Below are positions 676-34,197 of a stretch of 34,197 nt of DNA, piece by piece. This DNA is from Nitrospirae bacterium MYbinv3 (GTDB lineage Bacteria; Nitrospirota; Thermodesulfovibrionia; Thermodesulfovibrionales; Magnetobacteriaceae): contig PEAB01000015.1 in NCBI GenBank assembly GCA_002753395.1, positions 21,324-55,520 on the forward strand. The letters are read 5' to 3'. The number at the start of each line of letters is the position of its first letter. The stretch's first letter is position 1. The translations under genes were made by a program, and so were the position numbers. The notes under the pieces are model-generated. The model worked only from the letters and a program-made list of their open reading frames with translations, made no database searches and had not been told where the DNA came from.

Positions 676-2199
676 ATGATAAACATTAGACTTGATATCT
701 TTGAGGGACACACGAGGATAAAGACCGTTGTCTTAAAGGAGCCGAATACTTTTCTCATAGGCCGCTCAAAAAAGGCTCACTTACAGGTCGGCGCCATGGA
801 CAGAAACATATCAAGAAACCACTGTATGCTGGAGGTACGGCCAAACCGGTGTTTACTCATGGACCTTAACAGCCGCAACGGCACATACGTGAACAATAGG
901 AAAGTTACACAACATGAGCTTACGGATGGCGACGAAATAAAGTTAGGCAACATAACCATTCGTGCTATGTTAGAGAAAACCATCTTTGAAAAAATATTTT
1001 GCAGCAACTGTGGAGTTGATGTAACCGAGGAGGTGGTGGATCTTTTTGGAAAAAACATCGCCTTTCAAGACTACACCTGTACCGCCTGCCAAGACAGGAC
1101 AATGGAACTACTGAAAAATAAAATAGAAAAGAGACCTCCAAGACTCAAAGAGGAAATTAAGAGCAGCTTCTGCTGCTACGCATGTAAAAAAGACCTCTCC
1201 TCTGAGGCAGACAGAGACGGGCTTGCTTACGAACTTGAAGACTCCATATACCTGTGTCAACAATGTACTAATATAAAAAGCAAACAAGTATCCGCATCCT
1301 CCTTTCTATTAGATAACCAATACACGCTTATTGGTGAGATTGGAAGAGGGGGGATGGGGATCGTCTACAGGGCGGTACACAAACAGACACGAAGGATGTG
1401 CGCAATAAAAAAAATCCATCCATCGGTTATCTATGACGACCGCTACATCAGACTCTTTGAAAGAGAGATCACTGTGCAGTCTAAGGTTATACACCCCAAT
1501 CTTGTAAGACTCCTTGACAGAGGCGTTACGGGTGATACGTGTTATTTCATAACTGAATATCTGCCAGGGGGCAGTGTAGAAAATCTGATCTTTAAAACGA
1601 CTTGTAAGCGCATCCCTCCACCCCTGGCGTGCAGCATAGTGATAGACATACTTAAAGGGCTTTCTGCCTTGCACGAAAACGGGTTCATTCACAGAGACAT
1701 AAAGCCGTCAAACTTCTTGCTCTCGCTTCCCAACGAGACAAGCGTTTACAGGTCAAAGATATGCGATTATGGACTGGCTAAATCCTTTGAGGACGCTGGC
1801 AACTCGTTTTTTGACATCACAAAGACCGGAGGCGGATTTGCAGGGTCGATCATGTACATGTCCCCTGAGTTAATTAAAAACTACAAGTACAGTAAACCAC
1901 CCGTTGATGTGTACTCTGTGGGGGTTAGCCTCTATTACATGCTCACGGGCACCTATACCGTTGATATCTCTCGTATACAGTCAGAGGCCAGCGACGCCTC
2001 AGGGGTGACAAGACACGCCGTTGAGCTGGTACTTGATGAACCTGCTATAGATCTGCTTAGACGCGACCCGACTCTGCCCGCCTCGCTTGCCACTGTGGTA
2101 AACAGGGCAGTATCCAAGAACCTGGGCAGGGGGTTTCAGAGCGCTAGTGCATTCAGAAAGGAACTTGAAAAAGTAATGATACTTGAAGGATGGTGTTAA
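676..2199 (+). CDS. FHA / zinc-ribbon / Ser-Thr protein kinase
   Basis: A soluble Hanks-type protein kinase of 507 residues. Residues about 5-95 form an FHA phosphothreonine-binding domain (GRS 29-31, SRNH 46-49, NSRNGT 65-70). Residues 105-200 hold paired Cys motifs (C109/C112, C135/C138, C167/C170, C194/C197) that look like two zinc ribbons. The kinase domain spans about 215-505: glycine loop GRGGMG 223-228, ATP lysine K245, HRDIKPSN with catalytic D341, DYG in place of DFG at 364-366, and MSPE at 395-398. All catalytic residues are present, so it is probably active. No membrane segment is visible. A second kinase follows downstream, and the FHA domain could read phosphorylation by either one (inference). 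The next gene starts 2 bp after its stop. Confidence 0.93.
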   Translation: MINIRLDIFEGHTRIKTVVLKEPNTFLIGRSKKAHLQVGAMDRNISRNHCMLEVRPNRCLLMDLNSRNGTYVNNRKVTQHELTDGDEIKLGNITIRAMLEKTIFEKIFCSNCGVDVTEEVVDLFGKNIAFQDYTCTACQDRTMELLKNKIEKRPPRLKEEIKSSFCCYACKKDLSSEADRDGLAYELEDSIYLCQQCTNIKSKQVSASSFLLDNQYTLIGEIGRGGMGIVYRAVHKQTRRMCAIKKIHPSVIYDDRYIRLFEREITVQSKVIHPNLVRLLDRGVTGDTCYFITEYLPGGSVENLIFKTTCKRIPPPLACSIVIDILKGLSALHENGFIHRDIKPSNFLLSLPNETSVYRSKICDYGLAKSFEDAGNSFFDITKTGGGFAGSIMYMSPELIKNYKYSKPPVDVYSVGVSLYYMLTGTYTVDISRIQSEASDASGVTRHAVELVLDEPAIDLLRRDPTLPASLATVVNRAVSKNLGRGFQSASAFRKELEKVMILEGWC

Positions 2200-2201
2200 T
2201 T

Positions 2202-2528
2202 ATGATCATAAACAGTACGGTTAAATATTTTATTGTCTCAGGGGTGTTCACTTTGTTTGCAGCTATACCAGCATGTAAGGATATCTCGGAGACAAAGGAG
2301 CAATTTTCTACCATTACGGATAAAAAGATGGAAAGAGTTGAAAAGTCGCGTGTTGTTGTGGAAAAGGCTGATATCGAGACCCTAAGACGAGGGATTACGA
2401 CCTTTAACGCAACTAACGGTAGGTATCCAAATAACCTTGACGAACTAAAAGAATTCGTAGCTATTGACTTTGACAAGGGTATCTTCAATTATAACCCGCA
2501 AACAGGAACCCTCGCCTTAAAACAATAG
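2202..2528 (+). CDS. Small exported protein with pseudopilin-like C-terminal domain
   Basis: A 108-residue protein. The ATG at 2202 is preferred over the one at 2190 because GAAGGA (2185-2190) gives a usable ribosome site only for the later start. An N-terminal hydrophobic stretch (about residues 8-25) resembles a signal peptide or anchor. The preceding IPAC is a poor lipobox, so lipoprotein status is uncertain. The C-terminal half has the pattern IETLRRGITTFNATNGRYPNNLDEL, written here as its key parts IETLRRGI, NGRYP and LDEL, which resembles the soluble region of type II secretion major pseudopilins (GspG). It lacks the GFTLxE prepilin cleavage motif, so it is not a normal pseudopilin. It lies between two kinase genes; its role is unknown. 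Confidence 0.75.
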   Translation: MIINSTVKYFIVSGVFTLFAAIPACKDISETKEQFSTITDKKMERVEKSRVVVEKADIETLRRGITTFNATNGRYPNNLDELKEFVAIDFDKGIFNYNPQTGTLALKQ

Positions 2529-2542
2529 TTAAAGGAGAAAAC

Positions 2543-2629
2543 ATGGGGAGTAAGTATATTTGCGGAGTCAAGGGGGCAGCGGCCCCCTGCGTCAGCTGGC
2601 AGAGTCTCCCCTCCTTTGAAAAGTTATGA
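2543..2629 (+). CDS. Possible 28-residue leader ORF coupled to the large kinase
   Basis: AAAGGAG stands 6 bp before an ATG at 2543. The frame runs 28 codons and ends in TGA at 2627-2629, overlapping the ATG (2626) of the kinase gene in an ATGA junction. The large kinase has no clear ribosome site of its own, so translation of this leader could feed it by coupling. The body of the ORF overlaps a palindrome (GGGGGC/GCCCCC, about 2570-2587) and a segment related to family 1 repeats, so the peptide itself may be meaningless. Speculative. Confidence 0.3.
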   Translation: MGSKYICGVKGAAAPCVSWQSLPSFEKL

Positions 2630-5600
2630 AAGAAGTCAAAGGCCAACTTGATACTCAGATGCGCGAAAAAGGTCTGTGGGTAAAAAACACCCTCGTTGAA
2701 AACAGGTACGAGGTGCGTGATCTTGCCCGCGGGGGCATGGGGGAGGTCTACTTCGTCTACGACCGTGAGACCGAACGTATGATGGCTGTCAAAACCCCCC
2801 TCCCTTCAGTTTTAGCTGACGAAAGCGGCCTTAAACGATTCTACAGAGAGGCAGAGGCCTGGATCAGTCTTGGAGTGCACCCAAACGTGTGCTCGGCTTA
2901 TTATGTGCAAGAGATAGAGGGTATACCAAGGCTCTTTATCGAATACGTGGACGGTGGCAGCCTTGACAGATGGTTAAAGGCAAAACGCCTGACCACCGTC
3001 TCTGACAAACTCGACATGGCCATTCAAATTGCCTCTGGAATGCACCACACCCATACGCTTCAATGGGTCGACGAGGAAGGGGTTGAATATACCGGCCTTG
3101 TACACAGAGACCTTAAACCTGCAAATATACTATTAAGCAAATACGGGATGGCCTTGATCACTGACTTTGGCCTTGTCGGGGCCGGTCTTGGCGATGAGTT
3201 TGACGGGGACCTCACAAATGAAAGGCACAAAGAAAGCCTAAACATCTCCGAGGCTGGCTCCGCAGTTTCAAACCGCAGAGATAAAAAAGACGACCTGCTA
3301 GAAGGCTCTATACTAGCTAAAAGCATGTCAAGCCTTAGCCTTGCAGGCAGTCAGCTGGATGGCCTTATAGTGTCTGACTCCTGGCAGACCATAACATTGG
3401 GAGGGGTCCCCTTTGGCACCCCACAGTACATGGCCCCTGAACAGTTTAAGAACGCACACCTGGCAGGCTTCCCTACGGACATATACGCATTTGGGTGTAT
3501 GTTGTACGAGTTTTTTTGTAACAGACGCCCATTCCTCTTAACAGAGGAGGAACGCCGAGCCGTTATCTTCTATCAGATAACCGTGTGGCAAAGGCTTCAC
3601 ACCAAGACTCCGCCGCCTGATCCTGCCGAGTTCACCCCTGATATAGACAGAGAACTCGCTGAGTTGATGTTACAGTGCCTGGCAAAAAAACCTGACAAAA
3701 GACCCAAAGACTTTTCTGAGATATCAGAGCGCTTAAAAGGTATATATAAACGCATAACCGAAGAGCAATACCCGCGGCAAGAGGCAAGGACTGAGGAGCT
3801 TGCCCCAGGGTCGTTCAACAACCAGGGGGTCTCATACGCCACGATAAATCAGTTGCAACGGGCCGAGACCGCATGGAAAAGGGCGCTTACCCTTGACCCG
3901 CAACACAAGGAGGCCGCCTTTAACCTCATACTCTATCAGTGCAAGAGGGGGCTCTTGTCTGAGGATGAGTCGTTTAAAAACTTGCAGTTGTTTATAGATG
4001 ACCTGCCTTCTGCGAAACCGTGTGAGATCTTTAAGAGTAAACTTTCTCTGTTCTTTTCAAACGAGCACAGGGCACTACAGACCCTAAGAGACACCACAAA
4101 GAGCGGACAGGGCAGCCACGATGTCTACAGAGACATGGGGCTTCTGCTTTGCGGCTCTGAGACCGCCATAGAGGATGCTGCTTCATGGAGGGATGTCAAA
4201 AACAGCCTTAGACGGTTGATACAAGATAATAAGGAGGATCCCTCCGTTGTAACTGGATATACCCTTGCCCTAAAAAATCTTGGCGAGGACTATGACAGCT
4301 TCTACACCTCATACAAGGAGCGTTTCAGAGAACTTCCTGACAGCCTTGAGGATGCTCTGCACTCGTTTTTACCGGGCTTTGCAATAACAAGCGGATTCTC
4401 CCTCGAGCACGCCGGCATAACCGCCCTTGCCCTGTTGTCAGAGGGCGTTGTGAACGACACTGAGGGCACCCAGATGGCAATCGTTGGCTGCAACGATTCA
4501 AGACTCATCCTTGTGGATCTCAGCACAGGCAAGGTCGTTAAACCCCTCAAGGGACACACACTAGGTATTACCGCCCTTGCTGTAAGCAGTAACCAGCGCT
4601 ACGCCCTCTCAGCCTCCGAGGACAGGAGCATCGCCCTGTGGGATATAGAGAAGGGGAGCTGCCTGAAGACCTTTACAGGACATGGAAATACTATCACAGA
4701 CGTGCTCTTTGTTGGCAGATCTGCATATGCTGTGTCAGCCTCGATGGACGGGACAATACGCGCCTGGGACCTGAAAAGGGGAAGCGAGGCTGGTGTGTTT
4801 AACACAAAAAGCCAGGGAGTACATGCCATCGCTATTACAAAAGACGGTAAATACTTATATTCTGCCATAAAAGGCGCTCCCCCATGCAAGTGGGATACAA
4901 AGACAGGACGATTACTACTACAATATAACGGTCATTTTAGTGGTTCAACAACTATTGACTTGAGCTCCGACGGCCGCCGCCTCATCACAGGTGGTGTGGA
5001 TAACACCGTCTGCCTCTTTGATACCAACACAGGTCAGGTTATAAGCATGTTTAAAGGACACGAGGGCAGGATAACCTCTGTAAGGTTCAGCCACGACGAC
5101 GAGTTTGCCCTGACAACAAGCCAGACTTCTCTACATGTGAGGGATCTTACAAACGGCCTTCTTTTTGCGGTATTCAGATATAAGGGGCCTATCGTAAAAG
5201 CCTTTGCAGGGACCAGAGGTCATCAGATATTGCTTGCCCAGAGCAGTGAGATCATATGCCTAAACTATTTAAACAGATACAACTGTAATTATGCCTTAGT
5301 CCCCCCAGCCTACCTCAGAAAAGAAGACATCAAGATTGAGTTTACACGCAGGATGGTGGCGGCAAGACAACAGCTAGACCTCAAAGACTACCCTGGTACT
5401 TTAAACCACATCAACAGCGCAAGAGAACTCCAAGGGTATAAGAACAACGACAAGGTTGTCGAACTATTAACCAGAATCCCGCTTATATACAATCACAGCG
5501 CTATAAGCAGTGCTGTCAAGATGAACGAGTACAGACCGCTAGACGAGGACGGCATCATCACTCTTCTGCTGTCGTATAGCGGGGAGCAAATGTTTGTTGG

Positions 5601-7590
5601 GGGCATTAGCGGGAAAGCCGCAAGGTTTGACATCAACAATATGACAACAAGCCCCATCTATGACTGCCCAGACGATGACGGCGACTACGATAGCGATGAC
5701 GGCGACGAAAGAAGACTCAAGGTAGCCATTAAATCCCTGGAGCTTAGCTACTGTAATGAGTACGTCATCACTGGCCAGGATAATGGCAATATAATAAGCT
5801 GGAATAGTGCCTCTAACACCCCCCTGCGGGAGTTTAATACTAAGTATAAGGGGCAAACCTCTATTGCGCTTACACGTAATGTGCAACACCTGTTTTCGGC
5901 GGGCAAGGACGGCCTTATTCGATTATGGCATGTGGAGACGGGCAAGTACATGGGGCGCTTTGATGTTGTGCGCTCCCCGATCAAGCGCATTATATTAAGC
6001 CGTGACGAAAAGACCGTTATAGCGGGGTTAGGGGATGGCTCGGTGGTATTCTTTGACTCAGTGACGGGGAAGATACTCAACAGTGTGGCAGGACAAGGGG
6101 ATGGTGTAAGTGCGCTTGCCATGAGCGCTGATGGTACGCAGTTTCTTACGGCCTGGCAGGATGGCGGAATTGGACTTTGGAACTTCAAGACGAGAACACT
6201 CCTGACCCGTTACATGGGACATGAGGATGAGGCAACGTGTGTATGCTTTAGTCCTGATGGCCAATTCTTTGCATCTGGGGGGAAGGATGATACCGTATGT
6301 CTGTGGAGCATCCACAATGAGGAGTGTCTGCAACGGCTAAAGGGGCATGAGGACACTGTAAGCGCTGTCATCTTTAGCCCTGAGGGGTGGAACCTGTATT
6401 CGGCTGGCATGGACGGCAGGGTGATAAAGTGGTTTATTGACTGGGTACTTGACCAGGAGGAGGGTGTGCTATGGAAGACTCAGGCAAAGGGGCTTGTCTC
6501 TGAGTTTTTATCTTACCAGTACAGGCGGGGGATAATTGAAAAAAACAAACCTAGCTGGAGCGAAGAGGACATACCCCTTCTTGAATCAAGGATTAAGGCG
6601 GCAGGGTTTGAGTTTGCCCTATCGGATCTGCTAAAAGATACATTGCCTTCTTATAAAGCTAATTGGATGGAGTCGGTTCCTAAACGATTGCCTCTTGAGA
6701 TGGATGAGCCAAGAGATGAGGGCGAGATAAAGCAGGAAAAGGCCGCCAAGAGATTGACGGCAAAGCTAATTAAGCAGAGCGCTGTTGTGTTGCTAGTACT
6801 TGTTGTCTTGGCGCTTGCAGCGTATATGTATAGCTCGTCGAAAAATAAATACAATGAGGTGGAGTTGAGCAGATTTGATCTCAAAGTTGCCAAGGCCGGT
6901 ATGGTGCACGAGGCCCTTGCATACGTCAAGGACAAGTCTCAGGGCGATTGTGACACAAAAAGGCTTGATACATATAAAGAAAGCTATATGTATATGATTA
7001 ATAAGCATCTGACCTCCATAATATCAACAGCGTCAATGACCCAACAAAACGTGAGCTGTTTAGTTAAGCTAAGTACAAGCAAAGAGGGCATAGACACCCT
7101 GATTTTTCAGATGTTGCATACGAACAATCTTGATGAGGCTGCTGCTATTAGCTACTTACTGTCGTATGTGGGCAACAATGCCATCAACCCTCTCCTTACT
7201 GCCCTCCCTGACATCTCTCACAACAAGCAGGTCAATAGCGAAGCAGGGATGGATAAGAAGACCAGGGAGCGGCTTATTGTAGAGGCTGTTGTTAATATGG
7301 GCAGCACAGAGGCTGTAAATGTTGTCATCGAGTACGCCTTGAGAGACGATGGTTTCGCTGAGTCCGCAGCGCCCTACATCAAGCGGATAATAGCAACCAA
7401 GCGGCTTGATGTGGACGCAGCTCTTAAAGCGCTTGAGGGCTTAATGAACAACAACAGCAGCGTAGTAAGAAAAAACGCTGTCAGCACCCTGGTATTTTTT
7501 AAAGGGTCAGAGGCAAAGCGGCTTGCCACAAAGGCCCTCCAAGACAGTAGCGAGGAAGTGCGCAAAGAGGCAGGGGCCGTCCTTGAGTGA
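2626..7590 (+). CDS. Ser/Thr kinase with two WD40 propellers, one TM segment and HEAT-like repeats
   Basis: A 1654-residue multidomain kinase. The N-terminal kinase domain (about 28-370) has RGGMGEVY, ATP lysine K56, HRDLKPAN near 160, DFG near 180 and GTPQYMAPE ending near 271. Between DFG and APE lies an unusually long activation segment of about 90 residues. Residues about 385-440 contain a TPR-like unit. Seven WD40 blades follow (about 595-890), then seven more (about 970-1270) with GH and W/F-D type ends. The first blade of the second propeller has an acidic insertion near 1015-1030. A single hydrophobic segment at about 1384-1403 should cross the membrane. The tail (about 1500-1654) is helical and HEAT-like and would be periplasmic. 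It overlaps the following permease gene by GTGA, so kinase and permease are probably made together. Confidence 0.92.
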   Translation: MKEVKGQLDTQMREKGLWVKNTLVENRYEVRDLARGGMGEVYFVYDRETERMMAVKTPLPSVLADESGLKRFYREAEAWISLGVHPNVCSAYYVQEIEGIPRLFIEYVDGGSLDRWLKAKRLTTVSDKLDMAIQIASGMHHTHTLQWVDEEGVEYTGLVHRDLKPANILLSKYGMALITDFGLVGAGLGDEFDGDLTNERHKESLNISEAGSAVSNRRDKKDDLLEGSILAKSMSSLSLAGSQLDGLIVSDSWQTITLGGVPFGTPQYMAPEQFKNAHLAGFPTDIYAFGCMLYEFFCNRRPFLLTEEERRAVIFYQITVWQRLHTKTPPPDPAEFTPDIDRELAELMLQCLAKKPDKRPKDFSEISERLKGIYKRITEEQYPRQEARTEELAPGSFNNQGVSYATINQLQRAETAWKRALTLDPQHKEAAFNLILYQCKRGLLSEDESFKNLQLFIDDLPSAKPCEIFKSKLSLFFSNEHRALQTLRDTTKSGQGSHDVYRDMGLLLCGSETAIEDAASWRDVKNSLRRLIQDNKEDPSVVTGYTLALKNLGEDYDSFYTSYKERFRELPDSLEDALHSFLPGFAITSGFSLEHAGITALALLSEGVVNDTEGTQMAIVGCNDSRLILVDLSTGKVVKPLKGHTLGITALAVSSNQRYALSASEDRSIALWDIEKGSCLKTFTGHGNTITDVLFVGRSAYAVSASMDGTIRAWDLKRGSEAGVFNTKSQGVHAIAITKDGKYLYSAIKGAPPCKWDTKTGRLLLQYNGHFSGSTTIDLSSDGRRLITGGVDNTVCLFDTNTGQVISMFKGHEGRITSVRFSHDDEFALTTSQTSLHVRDLTNGLLFAVFRYKGPIVKAFAGTRGHQILLAQSSEIICLNYLNRYNCNYALVPPAYLRKEDIKIEFTRRMVAARQQLDLKDYPGTLNHINSARELQGYKNNDKVVELLTRIPLIYNHSAISSAVKMNEYRPLDEDGIITLLLSYSGEQMFVGGISGKAARFDINNMTTSPIYDCPDDDGDYDSDDGDERRLKVAIKSLELSYCNEYVITGQDNGNIISWNSASNTPLREFNTKYKGQTSIALTRNVQHLFSAGKDGLIRLWHVETGKYMGRFDVVRSPIKRIILSRDEKTVIAGLGDGSVVFFDSVTGKILNSVAGQGDGVSALAMSADGTQFLTAWQDGGIGLWNFKTRTLLTRYMGHEDEATCVCFSPDGQFFASGGKDDTVCLWSIHNEECLQRLKGHEDTVSAVIFSPEGWNLYSAGMDGRVIKWFIDWVLDQEEGVLWKTQAKGLVSEFLSYQYRRGIIEKNKPSWSEEDIPLLESRIKAAGFEFALSDLLKDTLPSYKANWMESVPKRLPLEMDEPRDEGEIKQEKAAKRLTAKLIKQSAVVLLVLVVLALAAYMYSSSKNKYNEVELSRFDLKVAKAGMVHEALAYVKDKSQGDCDTKRLDTYKESYMYMINKHLTSIISTASMTQQNVSCLVKLSTSKEGIDTLIFQMLHTNNLDEAAAISYLLSYVGNNAINPLLTALPDISHNKQVNSEAGMDKKTRERLIVEAVVNMGSTEAVNVVIEYALRDDGFAESAAPYIKRIIATKRLDVDAALKALEGLMNNNSSVVRKNAVSTLVFFKGSEAKRLATKALQDSSEEVRKEAGAVLE

Positions 7591-29298: not shown

Positions 29299-29386
29299 GC
29301 CGGAGTGGCGGAATGGGTAGACGCAAGGGACTTAAAATCCCTCGGGTATTATACTCGTACCGGTTCAAGTCCGGTCTCCGGTACCA
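29299..29386 (+). tRNA. tRNA-Leu (anticodon UAA)
   Basis: 88 nt including an encoded CCA (29384-29386). Acceptor arm GCCGGAG pairs with CTCCGGT, with a G-U at the first pair. Anticodon stem AGGGA/TCCCT encloses CTTAAAA, with anticodon TAA at 29333-29335. A long variable arm (CTCGGGTATT...CGTA) and T-arm CCGGTTCAAGTCCGG fit a class II tRNA, as expected for leucine. The sequence changes character immediately downstream, so this tRNA is the likely attachment site of the accessory island. Confidence 0.95.
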
Positions 29387-29404
29387 TTTAAACAATGACT
29401 TGCA

Positions 29405-29441
29405 GGTATCACAGGGTGTCATACGGTATCACCAGGTATCA
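29405..29441. repeat. Four GGTRTCA iterons at 10-bp spacing
   Basis: GGTATCA at 29405, 29425 and 29435 and GGTGTCA at 29415 start exactly 10 bp apart, one helical turn. They begin 19 bp after the tRNA CCA end. The position and spacing fit arm-type sites for an integrase or recombination-directionality factor, or a replication/partition iteron. No integrase is visible in the window. Confidence 0.6.
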
Positions 29442-29481
29442 AAAATGGGTGCAAATTGCACCCACCCGATGCAGGAATGCG

Positions 29482-29571
29482 CCCAAAAAGCACCCACCCC
29501 CTGACCGACGGAGACCGTTGATTTTCCTCATGCCGACACCTGACGCACCGCACCCAAAAAGCACCCCCTCA
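29482..29571. repeat. Direct repeat CCAAAAAGCACCC
   Basis: CCCAAAAAGCACCC occurs at about 29482 and again at about 29553, followed by CC-rich DNA each time. A self-complementary GGGTGCAAATTGCACCC lies just upstream at about 29447-29463. No ORF is credible here. This is the only structure besides the iterons that I see in the non-coding stretch 29387-29659. Confidence 0.45.
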
Positions 29572-29777: not shown

Positions 29778-29796
29778 AAACGTAATGGAGGCTACT

Positions 29797-30246
29797 ATGT
29801 ATACTTGTTTTGATATTGCCAATTATTTTCTTTTTAAGGCAACAGAAGGAGAAGGAGGAGAACTTATCTCAAACCTTAAGCTCCAAAAGCTCGTGTACTA
29901 TGCACAAGGATTATACCTTACTTGCTTCAAACAACCTCTTTTTAAAGAATGTATTGAGGCATGGACGTATGGCCCGGTCATACCCGACCTCTATCAAAAG
30001 TACAAGGAATATGGCAAGAGTGGTATTCCTGCTGAAGATAATTTCAATCCAGGTATGATAACTGAAAAAGACCGTGAATTCCTGGACGAAATCTTTGATG
30101 TTTTTGGACAGTTCTCAGCTATTCGGCTTAAAGATATTGCTCACGAAGATGAATGCTGGAGACAAGCATACGATAGATGTCCAGGCTCCATTATAACATA
30201 TGAGGCTATGACAGAAGACTTGGTAAAATACATGCGTAATGGGTAA
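29797..30246 (+). CDS. Panacea-domain (SocA/DUF4065-like) antitoxin
   Basis: 149 residues from the ATG at 29797, which is 5 bp after GGAGG; the ATG at 29785 overlaps that site. It starts MYTCFDIANYFLFKA and continues with KLQKLVYYAQGLYL and EAWTYGPVIPDLYQKYKEYG, the hallmark of the Panacea (formerly DUF4065) domain, found in the SocA proteolytic adaptor and in antitoxins of many unrelated toxins. The next gene overlaps by 8 bp, the usual layout of a toxin-antitoxin pair with the antitoxin first. A promoter and terminator-like leader precede it. Confidence 0.88.
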   Translation: MYTCFDIANYFLFKATEGEGGELISNLKLQKLVYYAQGLYLTCFKQPLFKECIEAWTYGPVIPDLYQKYKEYGKSGIPAEDNFNPGMITEKDREFLDEIFDVFGQFSAIRLKDIAHEDECWRQAYDRCPGSIITYEAMTEDLVKYMRNG

Positions 30247-30640
30247 AAAAATCCCACTTAACCAAAAAGGCAAGCACTTCGAGGTTAAAACACCTCCTAA
30301 TTATAATGAGTGTCACATAACCTTCTCATTTCGTCTTATGAGGAAAGGTAGTAAGTGTTGCTTGTCTCTTTGTAGGCAGATTGACAAAGCACATGTTGCC
30401 GACAAGCTGCTTTCGCTTGGACAAATGACATGGAAACAGATTCACCAAGTATCGCGGAAAGGGCTTGGATTTGAAATGATTCCTGTAGGCCAATTAAAAA
30501 TTGCCATGCCTTCTCACATTAATGAAGACGTCAAAGAAGTCATGATTTTCAAATTCTCAGATAGCGGACGTTTAGCAGGCATTAGAGAACGTGACATCTT
30601 TTATGTTATTTTTGTGGCTCCAAATCATAACCTGTATTAA
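30239..30640 (+). CDS. Probable toxin partner of the Panacea antitoxin
   Basis: 133 residues, basic, no signal peptide or membrane segment. It overlaps the antitoxin by 8 bp. The C-terminus GRLAGIRERDIFYVIFVAPNHNLY (in pieces GRLAGIR, DIFYVIFV, PNHNLY) resembles small toxin-like proteins whose last strand reads FYVIxxDPNHxLY. That family is associated with Panacea proteins and has no catalytic site that I can name. Alternative: another small effector. The toxin role rests on context. Confidence 0.6.
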   Translation: MGKKIPLNQKGKHFEVKTPPNYNECHITFSFRLMRKGSKCCLSLCRQIDKAHVADKLLSLGQMTWKQIHQVSRKGLGFEMIPVGQLKIAMPSHINEDVKEVMIFKFSDSGRLAGIRERDIFYVIFVAPNHNLY

Positions 30641-30708: not shown

Positions 30709-30748
30709 TATGTGAATTCCACTTCACATTATGTGAACAAAACTTCAC
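30709..30748. promoter_or_regulatory. Twin 19-bp operator-like repeats upstream of the parA-like gene
   Basis: TATGTGAATTCCACTTCAC (30709-30727) and TATGTGAACAAAACTTCAC (30730-30748) share TATGTGAA-N4-ACTTCAC and start 21 bp apart, two helical turns. Each holds the inverted pair GTGAA/TTCAC. They precede the operon by about 90 bp and could be autoregulatory or partition (parS-like) sites. Confidence 0.55.
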
Positions 30749-30836
30749 TGGATTTTTTCTTCTGCGCTTGCTTATAGTGTGACTAGGGTGCTAACACATC
30801 AAACGATGACAGACTAAGGAGGCGACTGGACAGAAC

Positions 30837-31730
30837 ATGGCGGATGGACAGCAGAAGGCGAAAGTGATCAGCTTCATAAACTTTAAGGGCGGCGTGGGCA
30901 AGACCTCTAACACCGTCAACATCGCGGGGGAATTGGCCATCAGGGGGAATCGAGTGTTGGTCATAGATACTGACCCACAATCTAATTCTACCGTGTGGCT
31001 TATGGGTGAAAATAATTTTGAAAAACTAATAAGTATTGCGCCAACAGCCAGGAATACCGTAAACACTTTATTTCAAAGTAGAATATTCCCAAATGTATAC
31101 AAGTTTGACATAGGAAATGCTATAAGAGGTTACCAATGGATAGACCGTCTTTTTTTATTTCCTGCTGAATACGACATGATTGACATAGAAAACCATCTCA
31201 GCGTTGTTCCTTTTGCAGAATCAATTTTACGTAAAGTTTTAATTGATATTGCATATTCTTATGAGTATATTTTAATTGATTGTCCACCTAACTTGTATAA
31301 GGTAACACGTAATGCTTTGTATGTTTCAGACTATTTTATTATCCCATGTATCCCTGATTATTTATCAAAACTTGGGTTACACATACTTGTAAAAAAAATA
31401 CAGGAATTTACTGAAGTAGCAGACAGAGAATTAAAACTGCTTGGGATAATACTAAATAAGGGTAGTAAAAACGTCGGAGTTTTCAAAGATGGCAAAGCAG
31501 CTATTGAGGACGAACTAAAAAAGATGATTGATAAGAAAACTTATGAGAAATTAGTGGACGACCAAGCAACAATATTTAAGACTTGGATAACAGATTTTGC
31601 CGGGGTTAGCGATGCTGTAAGTGAAGTAAAACCTTTATGTCTATTAAAAGGGAGAGGGTTTAACCAACCTAAAAAGTTATATCATGACTTAACGCAAGAG
31701 ATTGTAGCTTTAATTAAGAGTAGGAGGTAA
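30837..31730 (+). CDS. ParA/Soj-like ATPase, orphan
   Basis: 297 residues. The deviant Walker A KGGVGKTS (17-24), with both lysines, VLVIDTDPQSNST and LIDCPPNLYKVT mark it as a ParA/MinD-type ATPase. No ParB-like gene follows; instead come a Lys-rich unknown and a nuclease, so the role may be other than partition. The first 144 nt are about 53% G+C, but 31141-31320 is about 31%, an abrupt change within one gene. The stop is 1 bp before the next ATG. The start has weak ribosome signals (AAGGAGG is about 17 bp upstream). Confidence 0.88.
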   Translation: MADGQQKAKVISFINFKGGVGKTSNTVNIAGELAIRGNRVLVIDTDPQSNSTVWLMGENNFEKLISIAPTARNTVNTLFQSRIFPNVYKFDIGNAIRGYQWIDRLFLFPAEYDMIDIENHLSVVPFAESILRKVLIDIAYSYEYILIDCPPNLYKVTRNALYVSDYFIIPCIPDYLSKLGLHILVKKIQEFTEVADRELKLLGIILNKGSKNVGVFKDGKAAIEDELKKMIDKKTYEKLVDDQATIFKTWITDFAGVSDAVSEVKPLCLLKGRGFNQPKKLYHDLTQEIVALIKSRR

Positions 31731-31731
31731 C

Positions 31732-32274
31732 ATGAAAGACCAGGTCATAGAAAGATTAAAAGCAGTAATCAGGTATCTTGAGCTACAGGAAACTATTGAC
31801 GATATTGTAACTAATTCGTTGGCAGCGATTGAAGAATTAACAGTAAATAAACTAGCCATGCTTAAATCGTTTGATGAAAAGCAAATAGAGAACTATCTTA
31901 GGAAGAGAATTAAACGCAGACTTGAAAGTAGGAAATTCCTGCAATCTATATTCAAAGATGATTTGGAATGTTTCAAATCTTATAAGAATTTAGCACTTTA
32001 CGCTTTCAAGGAATTGTCAGAACAATTCCAAGACAAGAAGAAAGAGATTGTTGTATGGGATAAAGAAAAAAAGAAAAAACATCTTTTTGGCCTGAGAGAA
32101 GAAAAAGATGTGATAGCGTGGTTCGAGTTAAATTTTAGTCACCCTGAGCATGTCAGGATATTTTTAAATGATGCTAATATAGGCAAATATAAAGGAGGTA
32201 AAACGATAGGGACTCTTGCTAAAAATGCTTATAAGAGAATAAAAAAGATAAGAGCAGTCTCAAGCGGGATATAA
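31732..32274 (+). CDS. Lys-rich protein of unknown function in ParA/nuclease operon
   Basis: 180 residues, starting 1 bp after the ParA-like stop, with AGGAGG 4 bp before the ATG. It is strongly basic and predicted helical, with runs such as RKRIKRRLESRKF and KEKKKKHLF; it could bind DNA or RNA. No recognisable catalytic motif or membrane segment. It is A+T-rich like its neighbours. The tight spacing to both neighbours suggests a three-subunit unit, with this one perhaps a nucleic-acid adaptor (inference). Confidence 0.72.
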   Translation: MKDQVIERLKAVIRYLELQETIDDIVTNSLAAIEELTVNKLAMLKSFDEKQIENYLRKRIKRRLESRKFLQSIFKDDLECFKSYKNLALYAFKELSEQFQDKKKEIVVWDKEKKKKHLFGLREEKDVIAWFELNFSHPEHVRIFLNDANIGKYKGGKTIGTLAKNAYKRIKKIRAVSSGI

Positions 32275-32277
32275 TCA

Positions 32278-32742
32278 ATGTCTGACAAAGATGATAAACA
32301 TAGGCAGATTGAATATATGTTAATTCAACACCCATATCTGCTTAACATAAATTTCCCCGTTTCTTCTTTTGTTGTGGATATCCCGTCTTTCTCTGACGGA
32401 ACTACACCAGATGCCATGGTCTGTTGCAATGATACCTATTATGTGGTTGAGCTTAAAACAGGGGATTTAAGGAATAAGGATGTCACTCAGCTTGCAGGCT
32501 ATATTGATAATCTCATAGACGAACTTCGGCAAGATAATGTTAAGGGAATCCTTGTTGGCTTACAACCGATGGACGATAAAAGGTTAAAAGGATACATAGA
32601 GCGTAAAGGGTATGATATAGAATTGAAGTATGTTGGGATAGACCTACCTATCCCTGGCAGGTATAATATGTGTGAAAAAGGCAGGCATCCTTTGTTGCCA
32701 GGAAAGAAAACATGCTCATTTTGCTCTAGCTCTACCCCTTGA
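32278..32742 (+). CDS. PD-(D/E)XK nuclease-like protein with zinc-finger-like tail
   Basis: 154 residues. The PD-(D/E)XK core is readable: E12 in the first helix, D45 in TPDAM, E58-L-K60 in VVELKTG and Q71 in TQLAGY, as in NucS/EndoMS and DUF91-like endonucleases. The C-terminus has cysteines C132, C146 and C149 with H137, a possible zinc site. It is shorter than full NucS. It is third in an operon with the ParA-like ATPase. The stop codon overlaps the -35 element of the downstream promoter. Nuclease activity is inferred from the motif. Confidence 0.78.
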   Translation: MSDKDDKHRQIEYMLIQHPYLLNINFPVSSFVVDIPSFSDGTTPDAMVCCNDTYYVVELKTGDLRNKDVTQLAGYIDNLIDELRQDNVKGILVGLQPMDDKRLKGYIERKGYDIELKYVGIDLPIPGRYNMCEKGRHPLLPGKKTCSFCSSSTP

Positions 32743-32776: not shown

Positions 32777-32848
32777 CGATTATCTTGGGGTTAGCCGCTG
32801 ACCTTAATAGTGGCATTGTTGTTTTTATAGTATAGAGAGCCTATGATG

Positions 32849-32946: not shown

Positions 32947-33576
32947 ATGAACGTACAAAACAACTTACCAACAACAACCCAAATAACATTCCACGAAGAC
33001 ACACTCACTGCAACCGAAAAGGATGGCAAAGTCTATGTTGCCATGAAGCCTGTTTGTGAAGCACTGGGCTTAGAATGGAGTGGGCAATATAGACATATCC
33101 AAAGAGACGAGGTCTTAAATAACAGCATTGCCGTAATGGCAATTCAGATGCCACAAGATGACCAGCAGCGTGAGATTATCTTTTTACCCCTGAAGTACCT
33201 GAACGGCTGGCTGTTTAAAATCTCCACCCGTCGAATCAAGAATCCGCTTACCCGTGCCAAGCTTATCCGTTACCAGGAGGAGTGCTACGACGTGCTGTTT
33301 GAGTACTTCAACGCCAAACCCGACACAACGCCCGTTACCGACAATCAACCTGACGGTGTTGGACATGTGAAAGACAGACGGTATGGTAAGCTCATAACCG
33401 TCCTCTGGCATGGTGAAATGGCCGTCTTTAACAAGGCAGCCCTTGTGTTAGCTGGCAAGGCCATGATTGCCGGTAAGATGGTGCCATGCGGCAATGATAG
33501 AGTGCCATACGTCGGCGGCTACCTTGCTAAGGACGCTATCGTAAAAGCGATGAAGGAGGTATTGTCATGCAAATAA
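32947..33576 (+). CDS. Phage antirepressor (P22_AR_N-type) protein
   Basis: 209 residues, with GGAGG 7 bp before the ATG. The N-terminal 130 residues match the P22 antirepressor N-domain (VYVAMKPVCEALGLEWSGQYRHIQRD, in pieces VAMKPVCEALGL and QYRHIQRD; FLPLKYLNGWLFKI; EECYDVLFEYF). The C-terminal part, with VLWHGEMAVFNKAALVLAGKAMIAG pieces, is not recognised. Such proteins counter phage repressors, so the island has a prophage origin or prophage parts. The next antirepressor gene overlaps by 10 bp. Confidence 0.85.
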   Translation: MNVQNNLPTTTQITFHEDTLTATEKDGKVYVAMKPVCEALGLEWSGQYRHIQRDEVLNNSIAVMAIQMPQDDQQREIIFLPLKYLNGWLFKISTRRIKNPLTRAKLIRYQEECYDVLFEYFNAKPDTTPVTDNQPDGVGHVKDRRYGKLITVLWHGEMAVFNKAALVLAGKAMIAGKMVPCGNDRVPYVGGYLAKDAIVKAMKEVLSCK

Positions 33577-34197
33577 AGCGACCTGGAGCGGCAAAGGACG
33601 AAATGCACGAATCAACAACCCAGCTTATCCCTGTGCTGCAGTCCACTATAGGCGGCAGGGAAGTCCAGACCGTAGATGCAAGGGAGTTGCATAGGTTTTT
33701 GGAAGTGAGAAAGAAGTTTAGCGACTGGGTTAAGAACAGGATAATTGAATACAATTTCATTGAAAATACTGACTTTATAACGCTTTCCCAAAATAGGGAA
33801 AGCGGTGGTAGAACCATAGAGTACAACCTCACCATTGACATGGCCAAAGAACTCTCGATGGTGGAGCGCAACGCCAAGGGTCGGGAGGCACGGCAATACT
33901 TCATAGAGTGTGAGCGCCGGTACAAGGCTGCGGAGGCCCACACTCTCCCCCCAACCGATGACCCGATACTGATGCAGGCGCAAGTCTCTATCCAGTTACG
34001 CATAAAGCAGATAGAGCTTGAGGAGAGACAGAGCGATCTCGAAAGGCGAATAGTCAATATGGAACGCCAGCACAGGGAGGAAACACCCCCTGCGTCAATG
34101 GAAGGTGCGTGCCCCTACGTTCATCCAGGGGCATCGACACAGGGAGCCGCACTATCTAAAACGGCAAGGGGTAACCTGGTTACAGCACACAGTAACC
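33567..34197 (+). CDS. AntA/AntB-type antirepressor, 3' end outside window
   Basis: Open for 210 codons to the window edge, with AAGGAGG 7 bp before the ATG. The N-terminal region has the AntA/AntB pattern (VDARELHRFLEVRKKFSDW in part; IIEYNFIENTDF; YNLTIDMAKELSMVERNAKGREARQYFIECE in pieces DMAKELSMVERN and RQYFIECE). A coiled-coil stretch near residues 135-170 follows. It overlaps the previous antirepressor gene, so the two are coupled. The C-terminal domain cannot be seen. Confidence 0.85.
   Translation, partial: MQIKRPGAAKDEMHESTTQLIPVLQSTIGGREVQTVDARELHRFLEVRKKFSDWVKNRIIEYNFIENTDFITLSQNRESGGRTIEYNLTIDMAKELSMVERNAKGREARQYFIECERRYKAAEAHTLPPTDDPILMQAQVSIQLRIKQIELEERQSDLERRIVNMERQHREETPPASMEGACPYVHPGASTQGAALSKTARGNLVTAHSN

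Follow-up and report, generated by a model that had tools for sequence, protein, structure and literature searches.

Why should a ParA-type ATPase, a kind of protein known for moving DNA, be encoded at the end of a prophage together with a small basic protein and a predicted nuclease, and with no ParB in view? The operon that raises this question lies in a stretch of 34,197 nucleotides from Nitrospirae bacterium MYbinv3 (contig C170, positions 21324-55520, of a 3.7-Mb draft genome), which we call the window. A first-pass annotation had offered it as a candidate undescribed system that could cleave foreign DNA or act on plasmid or phage replication.

The operon and the prophage that carries it

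The three open reading frames all lie on the plus strand, with intergenic gaps of 1 bp and 3 bp (Table 1), and their products are those the first-pass annotation had described: a ParA-type ATPase, a Lys-rich basic protein and a NucS-like PD-(D/E)XK nuclease with a zinc-like tail. The ATPase, P0001, matches Pfam AAA_31 (8.8e-41) and the ParA-like PHROGs family phrog_164 (3.4e-52) and carries the Walker A motif KGGVGKT. The basic protein, P0002 (pI 9.6, 15.6% Lys), has no credible family in Pfam, PADLOC, NCBIfam or PHROGs; in particular, it has no ParB, ribbon-helix-helix (RHH) or CBP match in Pfam, nor a ParB or RHH match in NCBIfam or PHROGs. The third protein, P0003, retains an intact D...ExK...QxxxY active-site signature (D45, E58-x-K60, Q71xxxY75), followed by a Cys/His tail (C132-x4-H137-x8-C146-x2-C149), and its NucS matches are weak and correctly placed (NCBIfam 7.7e-6, under the curated cut-off; Pfam NucS_C 1.2e-3). 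Motif and weak profile, rather than fold, suggest that P0003 is a PD-(D/E)XK nuclease; the predicted structures of P0003 (pLDDT 39) and P0002 (pLDDT 52) are unusable for fold comparison. P0003 had no relative among 60 relatives, about 396 genomes of the phylum, genome contigs, viral contigs, plasmids and phages, and the sole relative found for P0002 was P0009 of the same genome. Because merely 3 bp separate them, the genes of P0002 and P0003 are very likely co-transcribed; a promoter scan of the operon region performed no better than shuffles.

Against PADLOC, the operon genes gave P-loop or nuclease-core background matches and no system model, and by these comparisons the operon corresponds to no system named by PADLOC, Pfam or NCBIfam. 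A literature search whose coverage left out most subscription papers found no described ParA-based phage-defence system. No ParB gene is in view behind P0001 before the window ends, which is also the end of the contig. The claims of an unnamed operon and an absent ParB thus both stood.

Table 1. Features of the window and of related sites elsewhere in the genome (window positions unless a contig or locus is given)
Feature	Location	Strand	Basis or remark
tRNA-Leu(TAA), attL	29299-29386	+	ARAGORN; 3' part repeated at attR on C87
Left-end flank of prophage family, GGTATCA-type repeats, conserved	29403-29560	.	recurs by other tRNAs in genome
SocA/Panacea antitoxin-like gene and partner gene	29785-30640	+	Pfam SocA_Panacea 3.9e-20; PHROGs 1281 and 8366
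Conserved leader of ParA operon	30709-30836	+	86-99% identity to leaders at other prophage ends in this genome
Operator: tandem palindromes TGTGAATTCCACTTCACA, TGTGAACAAAACTTCACT, 21 bp apart	30711-30749	+	ends ~88 bp 5' of ParA start codon
P0001, ParA-type Walker ATPase, 297 aa	30837-31730	+	AAA_31, PHROGs, tree
P0002, small basic partner, mostly helical, 180 aa	31732-32274	+	homologue P0009 behind second ParA on C109
P0003, predicted PD-(D/E)XK NucS-like nuclease with Cys/His tail, 154 aa	32278-32742	+	motif and weak profile
Weak terminator-like hairpin 3' of nuclease gene	32794-32814	+	6 in region vs 2.9 expected by chance
Phage antirepressor genes P22_AR (P22_AR_N) and AntA	32947-34196	+	Pfam
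Type I-B CRISPR-Cas operon cas6, cas8b1, cas7, cas5b	L178 (C123:9000-21000), 1940-6212		promoter with ParA-leader palindrome
Other intergenic TGTGAA-N6-TTCACA sites	C24:43405; C92 (L289:13372); C97 (L294:8123); C98 (L295:1652)		
Further intergenic TGTGAA-N6-TTCACA sites	C111 (L325:14667); C117 (L329:5545); C124 (L337:7026)		

The island beginning at the tRNA gene is one end of a phage. Bases 29328-29395 recur on another contig at C87:13271-13338 (97% match), where a tyrosine integrase gene (Pfam 1.2e-28) directly adjoins the repeat and the inner sequence carries phage early genes, an excisionase-like gene, a repressor, replication genes and the terminase TerL (names, integrase excepted, assigned by eye). 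Because the 3' part of tRNA-Leu recurs beside an integrase, with phage early genes and a terminase inward of it, the element is an integrated temperate prophage of the tailed type. Its attL end, away from the integrase, holds the ParA operon. The window does not reach the right side of the prophage: attL is on C170, attR and the integrase are on C87, and the middle of the prophage is absent from the assembly. A 34-bp direct repeat, ATGCAGGAATGCGCCCAAAAAGCACCCACCCCCT, occurs near both ends (window ~29470; L027:13204). The tRNA island, toxin-antitoxin pair and phage genes of the first-pass annotation are accordingly attL, the SocA/Panacea gene with its partner, and the P22_AR and AntA antirepressor genes, all of which were confirmed. 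We saw no replication initiator adjoining the ParA gene.

The end of a prophage opposite its integrase is a common home of cargo that benefits the host, and in this genome such ends are repeated. The left-end flank of the window also adjoins tRNA-Arg(CCT), tRNA-Ser(GGA), tRNA-Lys(CTT) and tRNA-Leu(CAG), so that a single genome has the left end of one prophage family at five or more different tRNA genes (window 29403-29560; L006, L022, L023, L024, L026). Between this flank and the ParA leader lies an accessory slot, occupied here by the SocA/Panacea gene and its partner, in C114 by an NYN gene, and empty in C109 and C12. The partner gene of the window (30239-30640) matches PHROG 8366 (2e-27) and gives a weak match (7e-5) to the PADLOC NsnC model, in the C-terminal part of that model.

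ParA relatives and their partner genes

A second copy of the ParA and partner genes lies on C109 at tRNA-Arg, where a ParA gene (P0008) is followed by that of P0009 and then by the contig end. P0008 is 48-49% identical to P0001, and P0009 is 22% identical to P0002 (phmmer 5.8e-9, in a small set). The DNA of the leader and ParA gene start is 86-93% identical between window and C109, whereas the protein bodies have diverged: the cassette is old, its front conserved and its body exchanged. ParA leaders or N-termini that are identical in front of strongly different bodies, inside one host group, were also seen at L040, L041, L043, L045, L059, L065 and L068, as well as between the window and L006:15925, and such loci suggest an exchange of cassettes in which the P-loop region is the conserved anchor. 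C109 also holds a third, divergent ParA gene followed by that of a 212-aa helical protein (L006:7653-9204), which falls outside the clade of the window ParA.

In a tree of 47 ParAs, P0001 and P0008 are joined with support 100/99, within a wider clade (95/93) drawn from Verrucomicrobiota, Bacillota, Actinomycetota, Acidobacteriota and the order of the host itself. A small partner gene comes behind nearly all ParAs of this clade, and ParB behind none. P0001 shares the ParA fold and KGGVGKT motif with the ParA of Soj/ParA-Spo0J/ParB systems but belongs to another clade and lacks the ParB; the 95/93 clade is separate from Soj/ParB, and likewise from the Soj-ParB pair that this genome encodes at a separate locus (C112), and the identification of P0001 as the chromosomal Soj was rejected on these grounds. 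The undescribed pairs of ParA and SAP-like partner in these phyla and in the host order share the clade and two-gene plan of the window operon, but have no third nuclease gene, and no homology of their partners to P0002 could be detected: profile comparison established no link, although by eye the C-termini are similar. Several clade members neighbour DNA methylase/Vsr, HNH, MT-A70, helicase or integrase genes. In the clade examined, no link of the relatives to plasmid replication genes was seen, and the nearest relatives are chromosomal; an obligate tie to plasmid replication, which the first-pass annotation had named as evidence against its proposal, is thus not what we found. Its expectation of conserved co-occurrence fared less evenly, since ParA with a partner recurs and the nuclease co-occurs with them nowhere else.

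Because P0003 was met nowhere else, the conserved unit is ParA plus partner, with the nuclease a local third gene. It could then be that ParA and partner alone are the functional unit, a widespread chromosome- or phage-borne pair, possibly nucleoid- or replication-linked, on which P0003 is hitchhiking cargo. Pairs without a third gene (L032-L035, L076, L077, L079, L081 and others), the orphan status of P0003, and the fixed housekeeping neighbourhood of the Verrucomicrobia members, with bioA, hpt and moaD (names by eye), all point this way. We nevertheless regard it as unlikely, in view of the 3-bp gap and probable co-transcription, and of a ParA, basic protein and third gene that recur in the same plan in Bacillota prophages.

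That Bacillota trio consists of a ParA, a basic protein of 110-155 aa and a third gene of 215-260 aa, and one homologous second-gene family unites 31 of its loci, including Lactococcus phage PLg-TB25 and one Halomonadaceae genome (loci of this type: L037-L068, L073, L100). Most of the third genes belong to one of three clusters, of 20, 7 and 3 loci; those of 20 and 3 are related by profile (probability 97), that of 7 only weakly (59.5); the second and third proteins tested have no credible match in Pfam or PADLOC. Like the window operon, the trio lies at prophage ends or beside an integrase, often adjoining it, and keeps identical leaders or N-termini before differing bodies. Its ParAs, however, form a separate clade (support 100/98), and its second and third genes are unrelated to P0002 and P0003 by hhalign, so that a single family of both trios was rejected. 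The Bacillota trio is in its own right a candidate for an undescribed system, and as an independent parallel case it makes a general plan of ParA, partner and cargo plausible.

An operator shared with CRISPR-Cas

The leader of the window operon contains four half-sites, GTGAA/TTCAC, spaced one helical turn apart at 30712-30748 and forming two palindromes of the form TGTGAA-N6-TTCACA; no such pattern is expected in shuffles of the window. Searched through the whole draft genome with up to 3 mismatches, the four-half-site pattern occurs solely in three ParA leaders (C170, C114, C12) and on C123, and the exact 15-bp core TTCACATNATGTGAA, searched on the same scale, in the same 4 places, with control matches at 0. 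The core has no exact occurrence in 175 other genomes of the order. The C123 site lies ~80 bp upstream of cas6-cas8b1-cas7-cas5b, a type I-B CRISPR-Cas operon. A ParA leader in a congener (L031) agrees with the C123 site in 18 of 18 bases, and the site is absent from the cas6 promoter of that congener's own genome. At L031 (G001:C48) the ParA frame is truncated after ~145 codons, and the same chromosomal site holds other cargo in C172.

Single palindromes were sought in 1.67 Mb and then in 361 kb of held-out DNA, together less than 60% of the genome. GTGAA-N6-TTCAC occurs 15 times in the former, against 0-2 at each other spacing from 0 to 15, and 2 of the 15 matches are intragenic, about chance level. 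The held-out DNA gave 6 matches where 0.34 were expected (0-1 at other spacings), all of them intergenic and falling at three loci with two copies each, 32 bp apart, upstream of two uncharacterised single genes and one operon of two TM proteins and a phosphoribosyltransferase. Intergenic sites often occur as two copies 32 bp apart, and downstream genes include uncharacterised ones of 233-240 aa and a PRTase with TM proteins. Because the enrichment is specific to one spacing and was replicated in held-out DNA, the palindrome is a real regulatory site, with the ParA operon among its targets beside several predicted defence-type operons.

These operons include, besides CRISPR-Cas, a gene for a 302-aa protein followed by one for a GIY-YIG protein at another prophage end on C172 (PDC-S57 4e-25; PD-Lambda-1 1.6e-11), a pair on C92 matching PADLOC 2TM-TIR (6.6e-8) and 1TM-TIR (4.6e-8), an AAA_16/nSTAND-like ATPase on C98, a tubulin-like operon on C24 (Tubulin_2 4.3e-8) and a 1428-aa protein on C97; the defence-type members are predicted from family matches, and some members are uncharacterised proteins. 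The C172 locus (L024:2134-3572, T5orf172/GIY-YIG) is a left prophage end with other cargo behind the same operator. One candidate kind of common regulator is the BrxR-type WYL protein: members of this family recognise inverted repeats and are found with many defence systems, CRISPR-Cas among them (PMC9122601). The likeness extends to inverted repeats upstream of defence operons; the repeats there have 11-bp arms, whereas here one palindrome serves dispersed operons.

The operator bears most directly on the main rival of a defence role, in which ParA and P0002 form a type Ib-like partition cassette that maintains the prophage: P0002 would bind the palindromes as centromere and operator, ParA would segregate an excised or plasmid-state phage, and P0003 would be accessory. 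Type Ib partition loci have tandem phased repeats directly upstream of parA, and the window operon shows just such repeats, before a ParA-type Walker ATPase gene and a small basic one. The leader is moreover kept at several prophage ends over ParA bodies down to 48-49% identity, a pattern that incompatibility would favour. However, the palindrome is not a private centromere, because it is shared with CRISPR-Cas and other unrelated operons genome-wide, and the operon differs from type Ib cassettes in its added nuclease, in a second protein that matches neither ParB nor RHH nor CBP (though it might bind through an unrecognised fold), and in its setting: attL, attR and integrase mark an integrated element rather than an autonomous replicon (a transient plasmid state is possible), the ParA gene adjoins no replication module, and its nearest relatives are chromosomal. 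We consider partition unlikely on balance.

The shared site could also be turned against the host, if the operon product, or the operator as a decoy, acted on the palindrome to repress or titrate CRISPR-Cas regulation. The restriction of the exact core, among the host and 175 other genomes of the order, to three prophage leaders and a CRISPR-Cas promoter would fit, as would a basic P0002 that could bind DNA. Because many chromosomal operons carry the wider site with no prophage ParA nearby, which points to a host regulator, and since the C172 site has no ParA in the stretch read, this reading is very unlikely.

A possible role in defence

Our preferred reading, which we put slightly short of an even chance, is that the operon is an accessory (lysogenic-conversion) defence module, directed against other mobile DNA and carried at the attL end of the prophage. 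The ParA ATPase would assemble on DNA, the basic partner P0002 would act as adaptor and position or trigger it, and the PD-(D/E)XK enzyme P0003 would be the DNA-cutting effector, while the TGTGAA-N6-TTCACA operator would wire transcription into a host regulon with type I-B CRISPR-Cas and other defence-type operons. We favour defence because of the cargo position (an attL slot opposite the integrase, next to the SocA/Panacea cargo slot here or NYN in C114), the predicted nuclease, the neighbourhoods of the ParA clade and, above all, the apparent co-regulation with CRISPR-Cas and other defence-type genes, which is the best evidence for such a role. Counting against it, the trio is not conserved as a unit, P0003 being an orphan and the C109 copy ending with its contig after P0009; the Verrucomicrobia relatives lie in a neighbourhood unlike that of defence genes; the operon fits no PADLOC model; and co-regulation is no proof of function. 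The defence guess of the first-pass annotation thus gains new support, a promoter whose rare operator also stands before CRISPR-Cas and further defence-type operons.

A broader proposal, which we hold less probable than not, is that ParA ATPases with dedicated small partners make up a modular class of defence systems of mobile elements, so far undescribed, in which the third gene can be exchanged: it encodes a PD-(D/E)XK nuclease in the window and different proteins in the Bacillota prophages. In this genome a prophage copy would then share its operator with CRISPR-Cas, and the weapon of a dormant virus would be switched along with the immunity of its host.

If the defence reading is true, a ParA ATPase would serve immunity alongside a nuclease, and one short palindrome would connect prophage cargo to a defence regulon that spans the host genome. 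The palindrome offers a handle for listing candidate defence operons in this lineage, three of them in the held-out DNA, and for seeking their common regulator, and the Bacillota prophages with their parallel trio, among them a Lactococcus phage of known sequence, provide cultivable test objects.
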